Shown one piece after another: positions 48,868-55,362 of a stretch of 64,000 nucleotides of DNA. The notes below the pieces were generated by a model, which searched no databases, was not told the origin of the DNA, and worked only from the letters and a program-made list of their open reading frames with translations. The stretch's first letter is position 1. The number at the start of each line of letters is the position of its first letter. The position numbers and the translations under genes were made by a program. The DNA is from Rhodobacteraceae bacterium DSL-40 (GTDB lineage: Bacteria > Pseudomonadota > Alphaproteobacteria > Rhodobacterales > Rhodobacteraceae). The stretch is from NCBI GenBank assembly GCA_003258405.1, contig QKPN01000019.1, positions 1 through 64,000 of the forward strand, written 5' to 3'.

Positions 48868-49944
48868 TCAGCCGCGCCCCAGGGCGGCCTGGATGCGGAG
48901 GTATTCGGCGATGTTCTCGAGATCGACGATGCCGGCGAGCGCGCCGGCGCGGGTGATGCAGACGATGCGCGCGCCCTCGGCCTGGAGTTCCTGGAGCAGG
49001 ACATCGAGCGCGGTGCCGACCTCGGCGGTGCGGACCGGCACCATCACCTCCGAGACACGGCCCTCCAGCCCGTGGTCGCGCAGGCCCCGGAGGATCCCCG
49101 CCTGGGTGAGCGCGCCGGCGATGCGCGGGCCGTCGAGGACGGGGAAATCCTTCTGGGTGCCGGAGAGCGTGAGTTCGACGGCATGGGAAAGCGGGTCGTC
49201 CGGCGCGACGGTGTGGAACTCTGTGATCATCGCGAGCCCGGCGGGCTTGCGGCTGAGCCGGGCGTCGAGCTCGGCTGATTCGGCCTCCGCGCCGGCACCG
49301 ATCCAGACGAAGACAGCGATGAGGATCAGGAACGGGTTGCCGATGAGGCCGAGGAAGCCGAAGACCAGTGCCAGCAGCCGCCCGACCGAAGCGGCGATCC
49401 GCGTGGCCTGCACCCGGTCGGTGCGCATGGCGAGCAGGGCGCGCAGCACCCGGCCGCCATCCATCGGAAAGGCCGGCACCAGGTTGAAGGCGGCGAGGAC
49501 GAGGTTCGTCGCGAGCAGCGTCGGCAGGATGCCGCCCTGGCCGATCCCGACATCAAGGAGCGTGCCGGTCTCGTGGAAAACCGCCATGACGAGCCAGAGC
49601 CCGGCGGCGATCACGAGGTTCACCGCCGGCCCGGCGAGCGCGACGACCACCTCCTGGCGGGGATCCTCGGGCATCTTCTCGAGCATGGCGACGCCGCCGA
49701 TCGGCAGCAGCGTGATGTGTTTGGTTGCAATGCCGTAGCGCCGCGCGGTGAGTGCATGGCCGTATTCGTGCAGCACGACGCAGAGGAAGAGCAGCAGGAT
49801 GAGGGTGAGCCCGGTGACGACGCCGGCAAGCGTGCCGGTCTGGGCCCAGTAGACATAGCCGAACCAGACGAGCAGCAGGAAGAACGTCGCGTGGACATAG
49901 ACGTCGATCCCGGCGAAACGCCCGAGCTTCATCGACCATTTCAT
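48868..49944 (-). CDS. Site-2 protease (M50) with CBS pair
   Basis: A 358-residue intramembrane metalloprotease. Six or so membrane helices span residues 12-225. The zinc motif HEYGH (FLCVVLHEYGHALTARRYGI, about residues 57-76) and the second metal-binding motif NLVPAFPMDGGRVLRALLAM (about 155-174) are intact. A CBS pair (about 240-355; DFPVLDGPRIAGALTQAGIL and GARIVCITRAGALAGIVDLE) would regulate it by nucleotide binding. The substrate, usually a membrane-bound regulator, is unknown. GGAGGGAGAG precedes the ATG. It is the first gene of a pair with nnr. Confidence 0.9.
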   Translation of the reverse strand: MKWSMKLGRFAGIDVYVHATFFLLLVWFGYVYWAQTGTLAGVVTGLTLILLLFLCVVLHEYGHALTARRYGIATKHITLLPIGGVAMLEKMPEDPRQEVVVALAGPAVNLVIAAGLWLVMAVFHETGTLLDVGIGQGGILPTLLATNLVLAAFNLVPAFPMDGGRVLRALLAMRTDRVQATRIAASVGRLLALVFGFLGLIGNPFLILIAVFVWIGAGAEAESAELDARLSRKPAGLAMITEFHTVAPDDPLSHAVELTLSGTQKDFPVLDGPRIAGALTQAGILRGLRDHGLEGRVSEVMVPVRTAEVGTALDVLLQELQAEGARIVCITRAGALAGIVDLENIAEYLRIQAALGRG

Positions 49945-50157
49945 CACCGCTCTCCCTCCGGTTTCCGGGGCCGCATCGTGCATCCGTTCGCGCGGGCGAT
50001 GCAAGCCCGCGGCGCCGGCCCGCCACTGCATCCCGCGGGTTGCACTGTTGCAGCGTTCTGCCAGAGCCCGCCCGCGAGCCCGTGACTTTAACGTCTTGCC
50101 CGCGTATGGGATGCGACTAGTGTTAGTGTGCAGTTGCGAAGAGTACCCGGAGGCACC

Positions 50158-52848
50158 ATGACGGTCCGCAATCTCGACAAGGTCCTGCATCCCGAATCCG
50201 TGGTCGTGGTCGGGTCCGGCGATATCGCAGACACCTATGGCGCCATGGTGATGGGCAACATCCTCGAGGGGGGCTTCGAGGGGCCGGTCTGGTCGGTCGA
50301 TCCGGGGCGCGCGACATTCGTTGGCAAGGACTGTTTCGCCCGCGTCGCGGATCTGCCCGCCGTGCCGGATCTCGCCGTGGTGGCGGTGGTGCCGGAGGAT
50401 GTGCCGGGCGTGATTGCCGATCTCGGGGCGAAGGGCTGCCGGATCGCGGTGGTCCTGACGCCGGGCGTGAAGGCGGAGGGCGGGCTGCGCCAGCGGATGC
50501 TCGATGCCGCGAAGCCCTATCTGCTGCGCATCATCGGGCCGGACACGCTCGGGGTGATCGCGCCCGCCGCGAAGCTCAACGCCAGTGTCGCGCATCGCGC
50601 GCCGCGCCCGGGCAAGCTCGCGCTGCTCTCGCAATCGGCGGCGATCGCGACGACGCTGATCGACTGGGCCGAGGATCGCGAGATCGGTTTCTCGCATATC
50701 GTCTCGATGGGCGACATGGCCGATGTCGACATGTCGGACTATCTCGACCTGCTGTCCTCGGACCGCGATACGCGCGCGGTGCTGATGTATCTCGCGCATG
50801 TGAAGAGCGCGCGGAAGTTCCTCTCCGCGGCGCGGGCGCTGGCGCGCATGAAGCCGGTGATCGCGATCAAGGCCGGCCGCACGCCGCAGGCGGCGCAGGC
50901 GGCGGCGACGCATACCGGGGCGATGGCGGCGGAGGATGCGGTGATGGACGCCGCCCTGCGCCGGGCCGGTGTGCTGCGCGTCAAGGGGCTCTCGGAGATG
51001 TTCGCGGCGGCCGAGACCGTGGCGCGCTTCCGCCCGCTCGACCGGGCGCGGCTCGCGATCGTGACCAACGGCGGCGGCGCCGGCGTGCTTGCGGTCGACC
51101 GGCTGATGGAGGGATCGGGCGTGCTCGCCGATCTCGCGCCCGAGACGCTGGAGCGGCTCGACGGCTTCCTGCCCGATGCCTGGAGCCATGCGAACCCGGT
51201 CGACATTCTCGGCGATGCCAACAGCGCGCGGTTCGAGGCGGCGATCGATGCGGTGGCGGCCGACCGCAATGTCGATGTGGTGATGGTGCTCAACTGTCCG
51301 AGCATCTTCGGCGGCTCGGATGAAATCGCCGAGGCGGTTGCGGGCAAGACGCGGCGGAGCATGATCGGCCGGAAGCCGGTGCTCACCTGCTGGCTTGGCG
51401 GCGCGACGGCGCGGTCGGGGTCGCGCATCCTGCGGCGCAACGAGATCGCGACCTACAACACACCGGCGAGCGCCGCGGCGGCGGTGGGGCATCTCACGGA
51501 CTGGGGCCGTGCGCAGGCCGCCCTGCTCCGTGTGCCGGACCGTGCCGTCGAGGAGGCGCTGCGCGCGACGCCGCATGACGCGGCGGCGAAGGCGCGGGCG
51601 ATCTTTGCCGCCGTTGCCGCCGAGGGGCGCTCGGTGCTGACGGAGCCGGAGGCCAAGGCCGCGATTGCGGCCTATGGCGTGCCGGTGCCGGATGTGCGCG
51701 TTGCGACCAGCGTCGAGGAGGCCGGCGTGCTCGCGGGCGAGCTGCTCGAGACGACGGAGCGCGTCGTCATCAAGCTCGTCTCGCGCCAGATCCTGCACAA
51801 GACGGATGTCGGCGGCGTGGTGCTCAACATCGAGACGGCCCGCCAGGCCGAGGAAGCGGCGCGCGCCATTGCCGAGCGGGTCCAGCATGCCGGGATCCGC
51901 GATCAGGTGATCGGCTTCTCGGTCGAGCCGATGATCTTCCGCCCCGGCGCCCAGGAGGTGATCCTCGGGGTGAGCATCGACCGGGTGTTCGGGCCGACCA
52001 TCCTTTTCGGCGCGGGCGGGATCGATGTCGAGGTGATGCGCGACACCGCCGTGGCGCTGCCGCCGCTCGATGCGAGCCTCGCCGCCGATCTGGTGAGCCG
52101 GACACGGATGGGCAAGGTGCTGAACGGCTACCGCGGCCGCCCGCCCGCCGATGCCGTGGCCCTGCAGGGCGCGATCGTCGCGCTGTCGCACATGGTCGAG
52201 GACTTTCCCTGCCTGCGGGCGGTCGACATCAACCCGATCCTCGCCGGCACCGACGGGGTGATCGCGCTCGACGCCGCGATCGAGATCGACCCGGCGCGTG
52301 TGGCCCAGACCGGGCCGAACCCCGCGCTCGCGATCCGGCCCTATCCTTTCGAATTGCGCCGGGAGGTCGTGCTCAAGGGCGAGACCTACGTGTTCCGGGC
52401 CGTGCGCCCGGCGGATGCGCTGCTCTATCCGGATTTTCTCGCCAATGTCTCGCCCGAAGACATCCGCATGCGCTTCATGGCGCCGCGGGCGCATTTTCCC
52501 GAGGAAATGGCGCTCAAGTTCACCCAGCTCGACTACGACCGCGACATGGCATTCGTCGCCATCGCGCCCGACGGGACGCTTGCGGGCGTCTCGCGGCTCG
52601 CTTCGGAGCCAGACCTGAAGCATGCGGAATACGCGCTGCTGGTGCGGAGCGATCTCAAGGGGCGGGGACTGGGCTCGACCCTGATGCGCCATCTCATCGA
52701 CTATGCGCGCAGTGCCGGTGTCGAGTCGCTCGACGGGGTGATCCTTGCGGAGAACCACGGCATGTTGCACCTGGTCGAACGGCTCGGCTTCGTGAACCGC
52801 CATGATCCCGATGAGGCCGGGGTCATGGTTTCCAGATTGAAACTCTGA
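50158..52848 (+). CDS. Acyl-CoA synthetase (NDP-forming)-GNAT fusion, Pat-type protein acyltransferase
   Basis: An 896-residue fusion. It starts with a CoA-binding Rossmann domain (about residues 10-130), followed by succinyl-CoA-synthetase-like domains (about 150-460), an ATP-grasp domain (about 490-710, VVIKLVSRQILHKTDVGGVV, RVFGPTILFGAGGIDVE), and a C-terminal GNAT domain (about 740-896; VRSDLKGRGLGSTLMRHLID). Such proteins (PatZ of enteric bacteria, Pat relatives) acetylate lysines on metabolic enzymes such as acetyl-CoA synthetase; whether the synthetase half still makes acyl-CoA is unknown. The ATG at 50158 follows GGAGG. It is a single gene, divergent from the site-2 protease. Confidence 0.9.
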   Translation: MTVRNLDKVLHPESVVVVGSGDIADTYGAMVMGNILEGGFEGPVWSVDPGRATFVGKDCFARVADLPAVPDLAVVAVVPEDVPGVIADLGAKGCRIAVVLTPGVKAEGGLRQRMLDAAKPYLLRIIGPDTLGVIAPAAKLNASVAHRAPRPGKLALLSQSAAIATTLIDWAEDREIGFSHIVSMGDMADVDMSDYLDLLSSDRDTRAVLMYLAHVKSARKFLSAARALARMKPVIAIKAGRTPQAAQAAATHTGAMAAEDAVMDAALRRAGVLRVKGLSEMFAAAETVARFRPLDRARLAIVTNGGGAGVLAVDRLMEGSGVLADLAPETLERLDGFLPDAWSHANPVDILGDANSARFEAAIDAVAADRNVDVVMVLNCPSIFGGSDEIAEAVAGKTRRSMIGRKPVLTCWLGGATARSGSRILRRNEIATYNTPASAAAAVGHLTDWGRAQAALLRVPDRAVEEALRATPHDAAAKARAIFAAVAAEGRSVLTEPEAKAAIAAYGVPVPDVRVATSVEEAGVLAGELLETTERVVIKLVSRQILHKTDVGGVVLNIETARQAEEAARAIAERVQHAGIRDQVIGFSVEPMIFRPGAQEVILGVSIDRVFGPTILFGAGGIDVEVMRDTAVALPPLDASLAADLVSRTRMGKVLNGYRGRPPADAVALQGAIVALSHMVEDFPCLRAVDINPILAGTDGVIALDAAIEIDPARVAQTGPNPALAIRPYPFELRREVVLKGETYVFRAVRPADALLYPDFLANVSPEDIRMRFMAPRAHFPEEMALKFTQLDYDRDMAFVAIAPDGTLAGVSRLASEPDLKHAEYALLVRSDLKGRGLGSTLMRHLIDYARSAGVESLDGVILAENHGMLHLVERLGFVNRHDPDEAGVMVSRLKL

Positions 52849-53798: not shown

Positions 53799-53901
53799 GC
53801 GCGCGTGACCCGGCGGGCGGCCGCGTGGCGGGCCAGGCGTTGCTCGACAGGGGGGCGATTGCCGCTATCTCTCCTCACAGCTTCGCGAACGGAGGGGGGA
53901 T

Positions 53902-55152
53902 ATGGGACGGCAGAAGGCCCCGGAGGTTCAGGACCCGTTGCGGTCGGCCCTGCTGGCCTGCCGGGCCGGCGAGCACGCCGGGATCGAGGCGATTCTCCAC
54001 AGCGAGGGCGCGCGCCTGTTCGGCGTGGTGTGCCGGATGTTCGGGCGGACGGCGATCGCGGAGGATGTGCTCGAGGACGCGGTGCTGCGGATCTGGCGGA
54101 CCTGCGGCCGGTTCCGCCCGGATGCCGGTTCGGCGCAGGGCTGGATCCATGCGGCACTTCACCGGAGCTGCGTCGAGATCCTGCGCGACGGGGCGCGGCT
54201 GGAAGGGCTTTCGCCCGAGGAACTTGCCGCATTGGAGGAGGCGCGCCGGCAGGCGGTGCCGCGCGAGGGCTGGGAGGATCTCCTGCCCGGAGAGTCGCGG
54301 GTGCGGGAGCGTCTCGCCGGGCTCGACGGGCCCGCGCGCCAGGCGATCCTGCTTGCCCAGGTGGCGGGCCGCGGCCTCGGCGAGATCGGGGCGGCGCAGA
54401 GCCTGCCGCCCGGCGTGGTGGCCGCCGCGCTCCGGCGCGGGCTGGCTGCCCTGCGGGACGGGGCTCTTCCCGACGCCAGGGGGCTGGATCTCGACGAGCG
54501 GGCGGATTTCTATGTGATCGGGTTGCTCGAGCCCGCCGAGGCGGCGGCGCTCGAGGCGAGGCTCGGCTGGGATGCCGGGCCGGACCATGCGGTGGCGGAG
54601 GCGGCCGACCGGATGCTGCCGCTCGATCTCGGCGCGCCGGAGGTGGCGCTTCCCGAGGGGTTCGCGGAACGGGGCACGGCGGCGATCGGCCGCACGCTCC
54701 CGTCCCCGGTGCTCAGGCCGCGCATCAAGCGGAACTGGACGCGGCCGCTGGTGGCGGGGCTCGTCGGCCTCGTCCTCGGCGTCGTGCTGGGCTGGCAGCG
54801 CCCCGACCCGGATCCGCTGGCCGTGGCGGTGCTGGTCAGCGCGGCAGGCGTGCCGCAGGCGGTGGTGGAGGCCTATGGCGGGGACCTGACCGAGGTGCGC
54901 TTCGTCACGCCGGTCGTTGTGCCCGAGGGGCAGGAGATGGTGCTCTGGACGCAGCCCCGGCCCGGGGCCGCGCCGGTTCCGATCGGGCAGATCGGACGGG
55001 TGCGGCCTGCGCACATCCGGGGGCCGGAGCTGCCGGCGCCGGGACGGGGCCAGCCCTACGAGATCACCTTCGAGCCGACGGAGCGCGGGGCGGAGGCGCG
55101 GCCGAGCGGGGATGTGCTGGCCAGCGGGGCCGCCGCGCCACAGGGCCGCTGA
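53902..55152 (+). CDS. ECF sigma factor fused to RskA-like anti-sigma factor
   Basis: A single 416-codon open frame with a perfect ribosome-binding site (GGAGGGGG). The first half is an ECF sigma factor: region 2 at about residues 15-98 (ARLFGVVCRMFGRTAIAEDV and RIWRTCGRFRPDAGSAQGWI) and region 4 at about 131-187 (LDGPARQAILLAQVAGRGLG). It continues without a break into an anti-sigma factor: a cytoplasmic binding segment at about 197-242 (ADFYVIGLLEPAEAAALEAR), a membrane helix at 281-298 (LVAGLVGLVLGVVLGW), and a periplasmic RskA-type domain at about 305-409. Such parts are normally two genes. The fusion would tether the sigma factor to the membrane until released, for instance by proteolysis. 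Region 4 is weakly conserved, so loss of DNA binding is also possible. Confidence 0.75.
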   Translation: MGRQKAPEVQDPLRSALLACRAGEHAGIEAILHSEGARLFGVVCRMFGRTAIAEDVLEDAVLRIWRTCGRFRPDAGSAQGWIHAALHRSCVEILRDGARLEGLSPEELAALEEARRQAVPREGWEDLLPGESRVRERLAGLDGPARQAILLAQVAGRGLGEIGAAQSLPPGVVAAALRRGLAALRDGALPDARGLDLDERADFYVIGLLEPAEAAALEARLGWDAGPDHAVAEAADRMLPLDLGAPEVALPEGFAERGTAAIGRTLPSPVLRPRIKRNWTRPLVAGLVGLVLGVVLGWQRPDPDPLAVAVLVSAAGVPQAVVEAYGGDLTEVRFVTPVVVPEGQEMVLWTQPRPGAAPVPIGQIGRVRPAHIRGPELPAPGRGQPYEITFEPTERGAEARPSGDVLASGAAAPQGR

Positions 55153-55210
55153 CGGCGCGGGCGCGATCGGCGCTTGCGGGTGGCGGAGCTTGCCCATAGG
55201 ATCGCGCGCG

Positions 55211-55362
55211 AAGGCCGGGAGAACGGGCGCAGCGCCCGTGCCGAAGGAGCAACCGCCCCGGAAACTCTCAGGCGAGTGGACCGGTCTTCGACAACGGACT
55301 CTGGAGAGAGGCGCATTGCGCCCGCCGAAGGGATAGCGATCTCAGGCAGAAGGACAGAGGGG
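55211..55362 (+). ncRNA. Tandem glycine riboswitch
   Basis: Two glycine aptamers stand in a row before gcvT. The first (about 55211-55285) has GCCGAAGGAGCAACCGCC and AAACTCTCAGGCGAG with the hairpin GGGCGC-AGC-GCCC inside. The second (about 55300-55362) has P1 CTCTG/CAGAG, the hairpin GGCGC-ATT-GCGCC, GCCGAAGGGATAGCGA and ATCTCAGGCAGAAGGACAGA. The linker is about a dozen bases. Glycine binding is known to switch on the cleavage genes in this class. No clear terminator was found between it and gcvT, so control may be at translation. Confidence 0.92.

Follow-up and report, generated by a model that had tools for sequence, protein, structure and literature searches.

A one-piece gene resembling a SigK/RskA-type sigma/anti-sigma pair in a Rhodobacteraceae genome

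As a rule a sigma factor and its anti-sigma factor are encoded by two genes, which often overlap, and this separation allows the sigma factor to be freed. Fused sigma/anti-sigma proteins are a kind already known. IutY of Pseudomonas putida (ECF243) has an N-terminal sigma part, one membrane helix and a C-terminal periplasmic domain, and N-terminal fusions are known in ECF36 (both in the accessible parts of PMC8999054 and PMC9249621). ECF48, ECF52 and ECF53 of Actinobacteria carry C-terminal fusions to a membrane part with an expected anti-sigma role (accessible part of PMC8999054).

The gene analysed here is closest to the SigK/RskA-type pairs (ECF18/ECF19; 4nqw), with which it shares the domains, their order and an RskA_C anti-sigma half, and from which it differs in being a single chain that lacks the SigK-type cysteines, the recognition-helix Lys and the GGSPT motif. 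Like IutY, it is a single polypeptide made up of a sigma part, a membrane helix and a periplasmic domain. IutY, however, works with an outer-membrane receptor in iron signalling of the FecI/FecR type, whereas our protein derives from SigK/RskA and its region 4 is degraded. Also unlike it are ECF48, ECF52 and ECF53, with their zinc-finger anti-sigma domains and other extensions. In the accessible text of the open-licence literature we found no report of a fusion derived from a SigK/RskA pair. A natural fusion that has split relatives shows how such a pair can merge and what then goes missing.

Layout of the fused gene

The window, a stretch of 64,000 nucleotides from Rhodobacteraceae bacterium DSL-40, contains an open reading frame of 416 codons (53902-55152, + strand) in which the sigma and anti-sigma parts share one frame, and whose ATG is directly preceded by a GGAGG-type Shine-Dalgarno sequence. 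The features are as follows.

53891..53899, + strand: GGAGGGGGG, Shine-Dalgarno-like stretch 5' of the fused gene (read in the sequence)
53902..55152, + strand: fused ECF sigma/RskA-type anti-sigma gene, 416 aa (open reading frame and profile searches)
54007..54198, + strand: Sigma-70 region 2, residues 36-99 (Pfam PF04542)
54298..54453, + strand: Sigma-70 region 4, residues 133-184, degraded (PF08281 below cut-off; substitutions)
54454..54489, + strand: junction, with CTGG at 54484 where relatives have ATGA, and a spacing 16 bases longer
54484..54696, + strand: anti-sigma cytoplasmic domain, about residues 195-265 (alignment of 13 relatives; NF052375 under its cut-off)
54739..54795, + strand: single transmembrane helix, residues 280-298 (AlphaFold helix; hydrophobic by eye)
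54766..55116, + strand: RskA_C periplasmic domain, residues 289-405 (PF10099)
55081..55110, + strand: site of the GGSPTxxPTG motif, here ERGAEARPSG, residues 394-403 (alignment)

The first-pass annotation had described a sigma/anti-sigma fusion in one 416-residue frame, with regions 2 and 4 in the first 190 residues (region 4 weakly conserved), then a single helix in the membrane and a periplasmic domain of RskA type, and the open reading frame, the Pfam searches and the AlphaFold model agree with this description. Sigma70_r2 (PF04542) recognises region 2 at residues 36-99 with 39 bits, above the cut-off of 24, and RskA_C (PF10099) marginally exceeds its own at residues 289-405 (29.6 bits, cut-off 29.4), whereas Sigma70_r4_2 (PF08281) reaches only 19.6 bits at residues 133-184, under the cut-off of 25.7. 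Among the best 25 of 52 NCBIfam families, ECF sigma models cover about residues 11-186, all under their curated cut-offs, and one anti-sigma model, NF052375, matches residues 204-403, also under its curated cut-off.

The AlphaFold model of the protein has a pLDDT of 76 and a pTM of 0.45, and because the latter is so low we make no claim that the anti-sigma domain packs on the sigma part. A Foldseek search of the model gave 14 matches with E <= 0.001, all of them sigma factors, alone or within complexes, and among these 4nqw had the top target-normalised score (0.61). Within the genome, the fused gene was the only match in a genome-wide RskA_C search, and the other sigma matches to the fused protein were two, both weak (26% identity). 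A single-protein scan of genome contigs with the fused protein found no relative.

Split relatives and the junction

We searched with the whole protein in overlapping samples of genomes: 149 and 394 from the family, 11 from the genus, 390 from the order and 385 from the class. Among the matches listed in the family, genus and order searches, no other gene gave a stop-free match from sigma through anti-sigma. We parsed 33 homologous loci (16 from family genomes with E <= 1e-14, two from genus mates and 15 from order genomes with E <= 1e-20), and none is fused. In 31 of the 33 the sigma stop lies in a 4-base overlap with a start codon, as ATGA or, once, GTGA (G508); the two loci without it, G101 and G004, are distant. 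Behind the sigma gene there is an anti-sigma match in 32 of the 33 loci, always in another frame; the exception is G156, where no such match was found although an open reading frame begins inside the overlap.

A second collection came from a scan with alignment A2, from which we took the best 80 of 92 confirmed loci. At the criteria used, 58 of these 80 have a sigma/anti-sigma pair and 22 do not; in the 58 pairs drawn from the best 80 of 92 loci the 4-base overlap is present every time (58/58) and fusion never occurs (0/58). The 33 loci and the 58 pairs are partly redundant, with species in common, and the counts are not additive. These split pairs (0/33 fused, and 0/58 from the best 80 of 92 loci) support the premise of the first-pass annotation that such parts are normally separate, neighbouring genes.

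The nearest relative, G091, is 56% (sigma) and 48% (anti-sigma) identical to the fused parts, which it encodes in different frames; Pfam finds Sigma70_r4_2 (44.3 bits) and RskA_C (71.3 bits) in G091, and RskA_C (71.8 bits) in a further split relative, G159. Two genomes picked for their long open frames, G046 and G126, gave no same-frame match across both parts. The class search matched 20 other genomes, of which G664 and G985, with matches running beyond the sigma end, were read; in G985 a stop separates the two parts.

The alignment also indicates how the two frames became one. In the relatives the sigma protein ends in ...CLS followed by a stop within the ATGA overlap (in G091, ctg agg gag tgt ctg tca TGA; there the ATG of ATGA is the anti-sigma start). 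In the fused gene this ATGA is gone, and a CTG at 54484 aligns with the relatives' anti-sigma ATG. From the matching Leu codon to the matching start position we read 33 bases here versus 17 in G091. With 16 bases more, the offset between the frames is 0 instead of 2, and both parts are read through. The fused frame holds GTG codons at 54415, 54418 and 54514 and a TTG at 54523, and initiation at such an in-frame codon may yield some free anti-sigma factor.

The first-pass annotation had named a frameshift or sequencing error at 54470-54500 as what would undo its reading, and an error that joins two genes has indeed one concrete form. Between 54371 and 54560 the two remaining frames contain a single ATG, GTG or TTG, namely the ATG at 54512, and a TGA (54515) comes immediately after it. 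In the erroneous case the sigma gene would end at TGA 54515, overlapping an anti-sigma start at GTG 54514. Given one miscalled base upstream, the GTGA at 54514-54517 sits in the right frames; one relative, G508, uses a GTGA overlap, and the junction contains a GGGGG run. However, a start at GTG 54514 would drop LDLDERADFY, which aligns with the relatives' anti-sigma start, and this GTG encodes a Val inside their VLGL-type segment. Further, the shifted frame lacks the CL-type sigma end, and the loss of the ATG together with 16 extra bases is beyond the reach of a single miscalled base. Since the GTGA reading removes aligned anti-sigma residues and leaves a sigma factor without its CL end, an assembly error at the junction is unlikely, and the objection is weakened to the point where only a slim chance is left to it.

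Many of the split loci belong to a recurring module, DUF4394 - SigK-type sigma - RskA-type anti-sigma, seen in Rhodobacteraceae- and Rhizobiales-type genomes (loci among L062-L120 and L136-L215), in which the ATGA overlap is nearly invariant. The sigma gene has a DUF4394 gene close by, either divergent or in line with it, at 22 of the 33 loci, and DUF4394 was found at 53 of the 58 pair loci (from the best 80 of 92). We found no open-licence paper combining DUF4394 with 'sigma factor'. In the draft genome that carries the fused gene DUF4394 (PF14339) has no match; given that it was not found at 11/33 and 5/58 loci either (the latter from the best 80 of 92), its absence alone is no sign of decay.

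Lost residues and remaining constraint

In ECF sigma factors, a Lys of the recognition helix and Arg residues of region 2 contact DNA. We aligned the fused protein with 13 split relatives and found these positions changed: the recognition-helix Lys, kept by 13/13 relatives, is replaced (K174A), and so are two region-2 arginines, each also kept by 13/13 (R87H, and Ser instead of Arg at 89). Region 2 further carries Q58E at a near-invariant column, and region 4 carries L170P and has GVVAAA at the place of the GTxKSW of several relatives. By profile and by residue, then, the fused protein has no region 4 with an intact recognition helix (PF08281, K174A, GVVAAA). In the periplasmic part GSPT is present in 13/13 relatives (GGSPT in 12/13), and every GSPT residue is changed.

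The two SigK-type cysteines are gone as well. The Cys of the LxxCL segment and a C-terminal Cys are each found in 13/13 relatives; the first is replaced here (C137R), and the fused protein has no Cys after residue 90. Both are kept in G159, whose best solved-structure match is SigK (4nqw), and both G159 columns align with the Cys residues of SigK in that structure. According to the accessible part of PMC7509140, Cys 133 and Cys 183 of SigK make a redox-sensitive disulfide and are found in 94% of ECF18 and 56% of ECF19. The same part of that article states that cysteine-less SigK proteins are accompanied by abnormal RskA, and it describes natural cysteine-less SigK proteins as highly active, which argues against a simple 'dead' reading of our gene.

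A leave-one-out control used 28 split relatives (the 33 loci without G241, G101, G004, G077 and G156, dropped as too distant). Of the near-invariant columns, 11 of 39 are broken in the sigma half of the fused protein and 12 of 35 in its anti-sigma half, versus 0-5 and 0-9 in the relatives, of which 19/28 and 18/28, respectively, break none. G091 breaks none in either half, and the highest breaker in both halves is an outlier, G364, whose count in the anti-sigma half (9/36) comes close to that of the fused protein.

The fused gene also sits on long branches (0.84 vs 0.15 for G091 in the sigma half, 0.97 vs 0.28 in the anti-sigma half). It pairs with G091 in the sigma tree (support 85), and its placement in the anti-sigma tree is weak (support 59). 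Relative-rate counts gave a faster fused gene in 12/12 comparisons, which are not independent (chi-square 9.3-33.4). Such branches, with many conserved positions lost in both halves, would be expected if the gene were decaying, with selection weak or absent and the frame remaining open since stops are rare at such G+C; that chance frames do stay open here is seen from a 440-residue minus-strand frame across this region. With synonymous sites saturated, NG86 gave dN/dS of 0.58 and 0.61 between the fused gene and G091 and 0.36 and 0.42 between G091 and G560, values that, like the absence of DUF4394 from the genome, point in the same direction.

Because of this saturation we used a codon model after NG86, with seven taxa. 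In the sigma half omega was 0.19 on the fused branch versus 0.05 elsewhere, a difference that is not significant (p = 0.077), and in the anti-sigma half it did not rise (0.088 vs 0.084). As foreground controls, G091 (both halves) and G159 (sigma half) did not differ significantly from background. With the same saturation of synonymous sites, omega = 1 on the fused branch was rejected for both halves (sigma p = 0.0058, anti-sigma p = 0.0012). Against decay stand also the GC3 of the fused gene (90.6%, versus 71-74% G+C in two flanking spacers), its 416 codons without any other frame break and the retained Shine-Dalgarno sequence. The gene has diverged, yet it does not look free of constraint, and we regard decay as doubtful.

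The rejection of neutrality would also suit a working membrane-tethered sigma factor. In this case, by analogy with IutY, an outside signal would set off cleavage by proteases, first in the periplasm or within the membrane, freeing the N-terminal sigma part to direct RNA polymerase to new promoters. The layout is that of IutY, from which Prc and RseP remove the fused anti-sigma part (PMC8999054 and PMC9249621), the Shine-Dalgarno sequence and frame are intact, and region 2 still scores 39 bits. However, the recognition-helix Lys and region-2 Arg that 13/13 relatives keep are lost, region 4 falls under the Pfam cut-off, the periplasmic motif is lost and the usual partner, DUF4394, has no match in the genome. 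We therefore think a working tethered sigma factor rather improbable.

The explanation we prefer, with a confidence that lies only modestly on the positive side, is a real, lineage-specific fusion derived from a SigK/RskA pair, constrained but no longer a normal releasable sigma factor, and either degenerate or repurposed. A SigK/RskA-type gene pair would have become one gene in this lineage when the ATGA stop/start overlap was lost and the junction gained a net 16 bases, which brought the two parts into a single frame. The product would be anchored in the membrane, its cytoplasmic sigma part presumably still folding and held by its own anti-sigma domain, with self-binding and permanent tethering as the expected consequences. 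Residues with an expected role in contacting the ancestral promoter are lost, as is the redox cysteine pair; it is on these losses that we base the view that this is not a normal releasable sigma factor. Judged from its sequence, the sigma half probably no longer recognises the ancestral promoter, and the outcome would be a degenerate or repurposed membrane protein under purifying selection, which may now have a new role or be on its way out.

The first-pass annotation had offered two options, a tethered sigma factor freed by cleavage or one without activity, left with nothing but a sensor role. The evidence favours the loss of activity, since the recognition-helix Lys, the region-2 Arg and both Cys kept by 13/13 relatives are gone, and release by cleavage fares worse. 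That a sensor role was kept is less clear, since the GGSPT motif is lost and the genome gives no match to DUF4394.

Diverged sigma factors can gain new promoter specificities. The fused gene could encode a retargeted one-piece SigK/RskA switch, tethered to the membrane and working either after proteolytic release or in place, which would recognise new promoters or titrate another anti-sigma factor or RNA polymerase; this we consider possible, though on the unlikely side.

Other one-piece proteins and the neighbourhood

Other one-piece SigK-type proteins are found in G664, G1040, G1039, G1071, G1038 and G720 (L132, 3023-3904, - strand; L216-L220 and L247). Of 40 genomes in the G664 family, 5 have a match that runs from sigma through anti-sigma, and so has G720, from another family. 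All six proteins have the GTxKS motif and five the C-terminal Cys (not G1038). Five of the six end in a stretch that is hydrophobic by eye, with no periplasmic RskA_C seen; the G1038 sequence contains many unknown bases and shows no clear helix. A Pfam search of the G664 protein gave no RskA_C, and from its position and its partial match to the fused gene we call its second segment 'anti-sigma-like'. In the five loci of the G664 family similar ferritin-like proteins follow (by eye; checked with Pfam for G664).

These proteins share with our gene a sigma part and an anti-sigma-like segment in one frame, but they are found in other families, and their origin is therefore probably separate. With the sigma motif intact, they are better suited to testing whether a sigma factor of SigK type can work joined to its own lock. 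If the fused gene of the window were indeed a retargeted switch, it and the G664-type proteins would point to repeated fusion of SigK-type pairs among alphaproteobacteria.

Around the fused gene, the upstream open reading frame is presumably a cation diffusion transporter, and those downstream we take to be gcvT, gcvH and gcvP. A glycine riboswitch aptamer (55206-55293), the only one to reach the threshold, lies between the fused gene and the gcvT-like frame. No gcvT/gcvH was found beside the transporter match in 7 genus mates, within up to 1.5 kb on each side. A search for a two-part motif upstream of the gene in 25 relatives (23 counted) gave subset words above one shuffled control and nothing firm.

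Two long frames overlap the fused gene, 53875-55197 on the - strand (440 residues) and 53805-55199 on the + strand (464 residues). They are probably an effect of the high G+C, and they make the length of an open reading frame weak evidence by itself in this region.

Finally, M50-type site-2 proteases can cleave membrane anti-sigma factors. The window also contains an open frame of 1311 residues (48868-52803, - strand), with a true start probably much further downstream, whose last part presumably resembles, by eye, such an M50-type protease (HEYGH).
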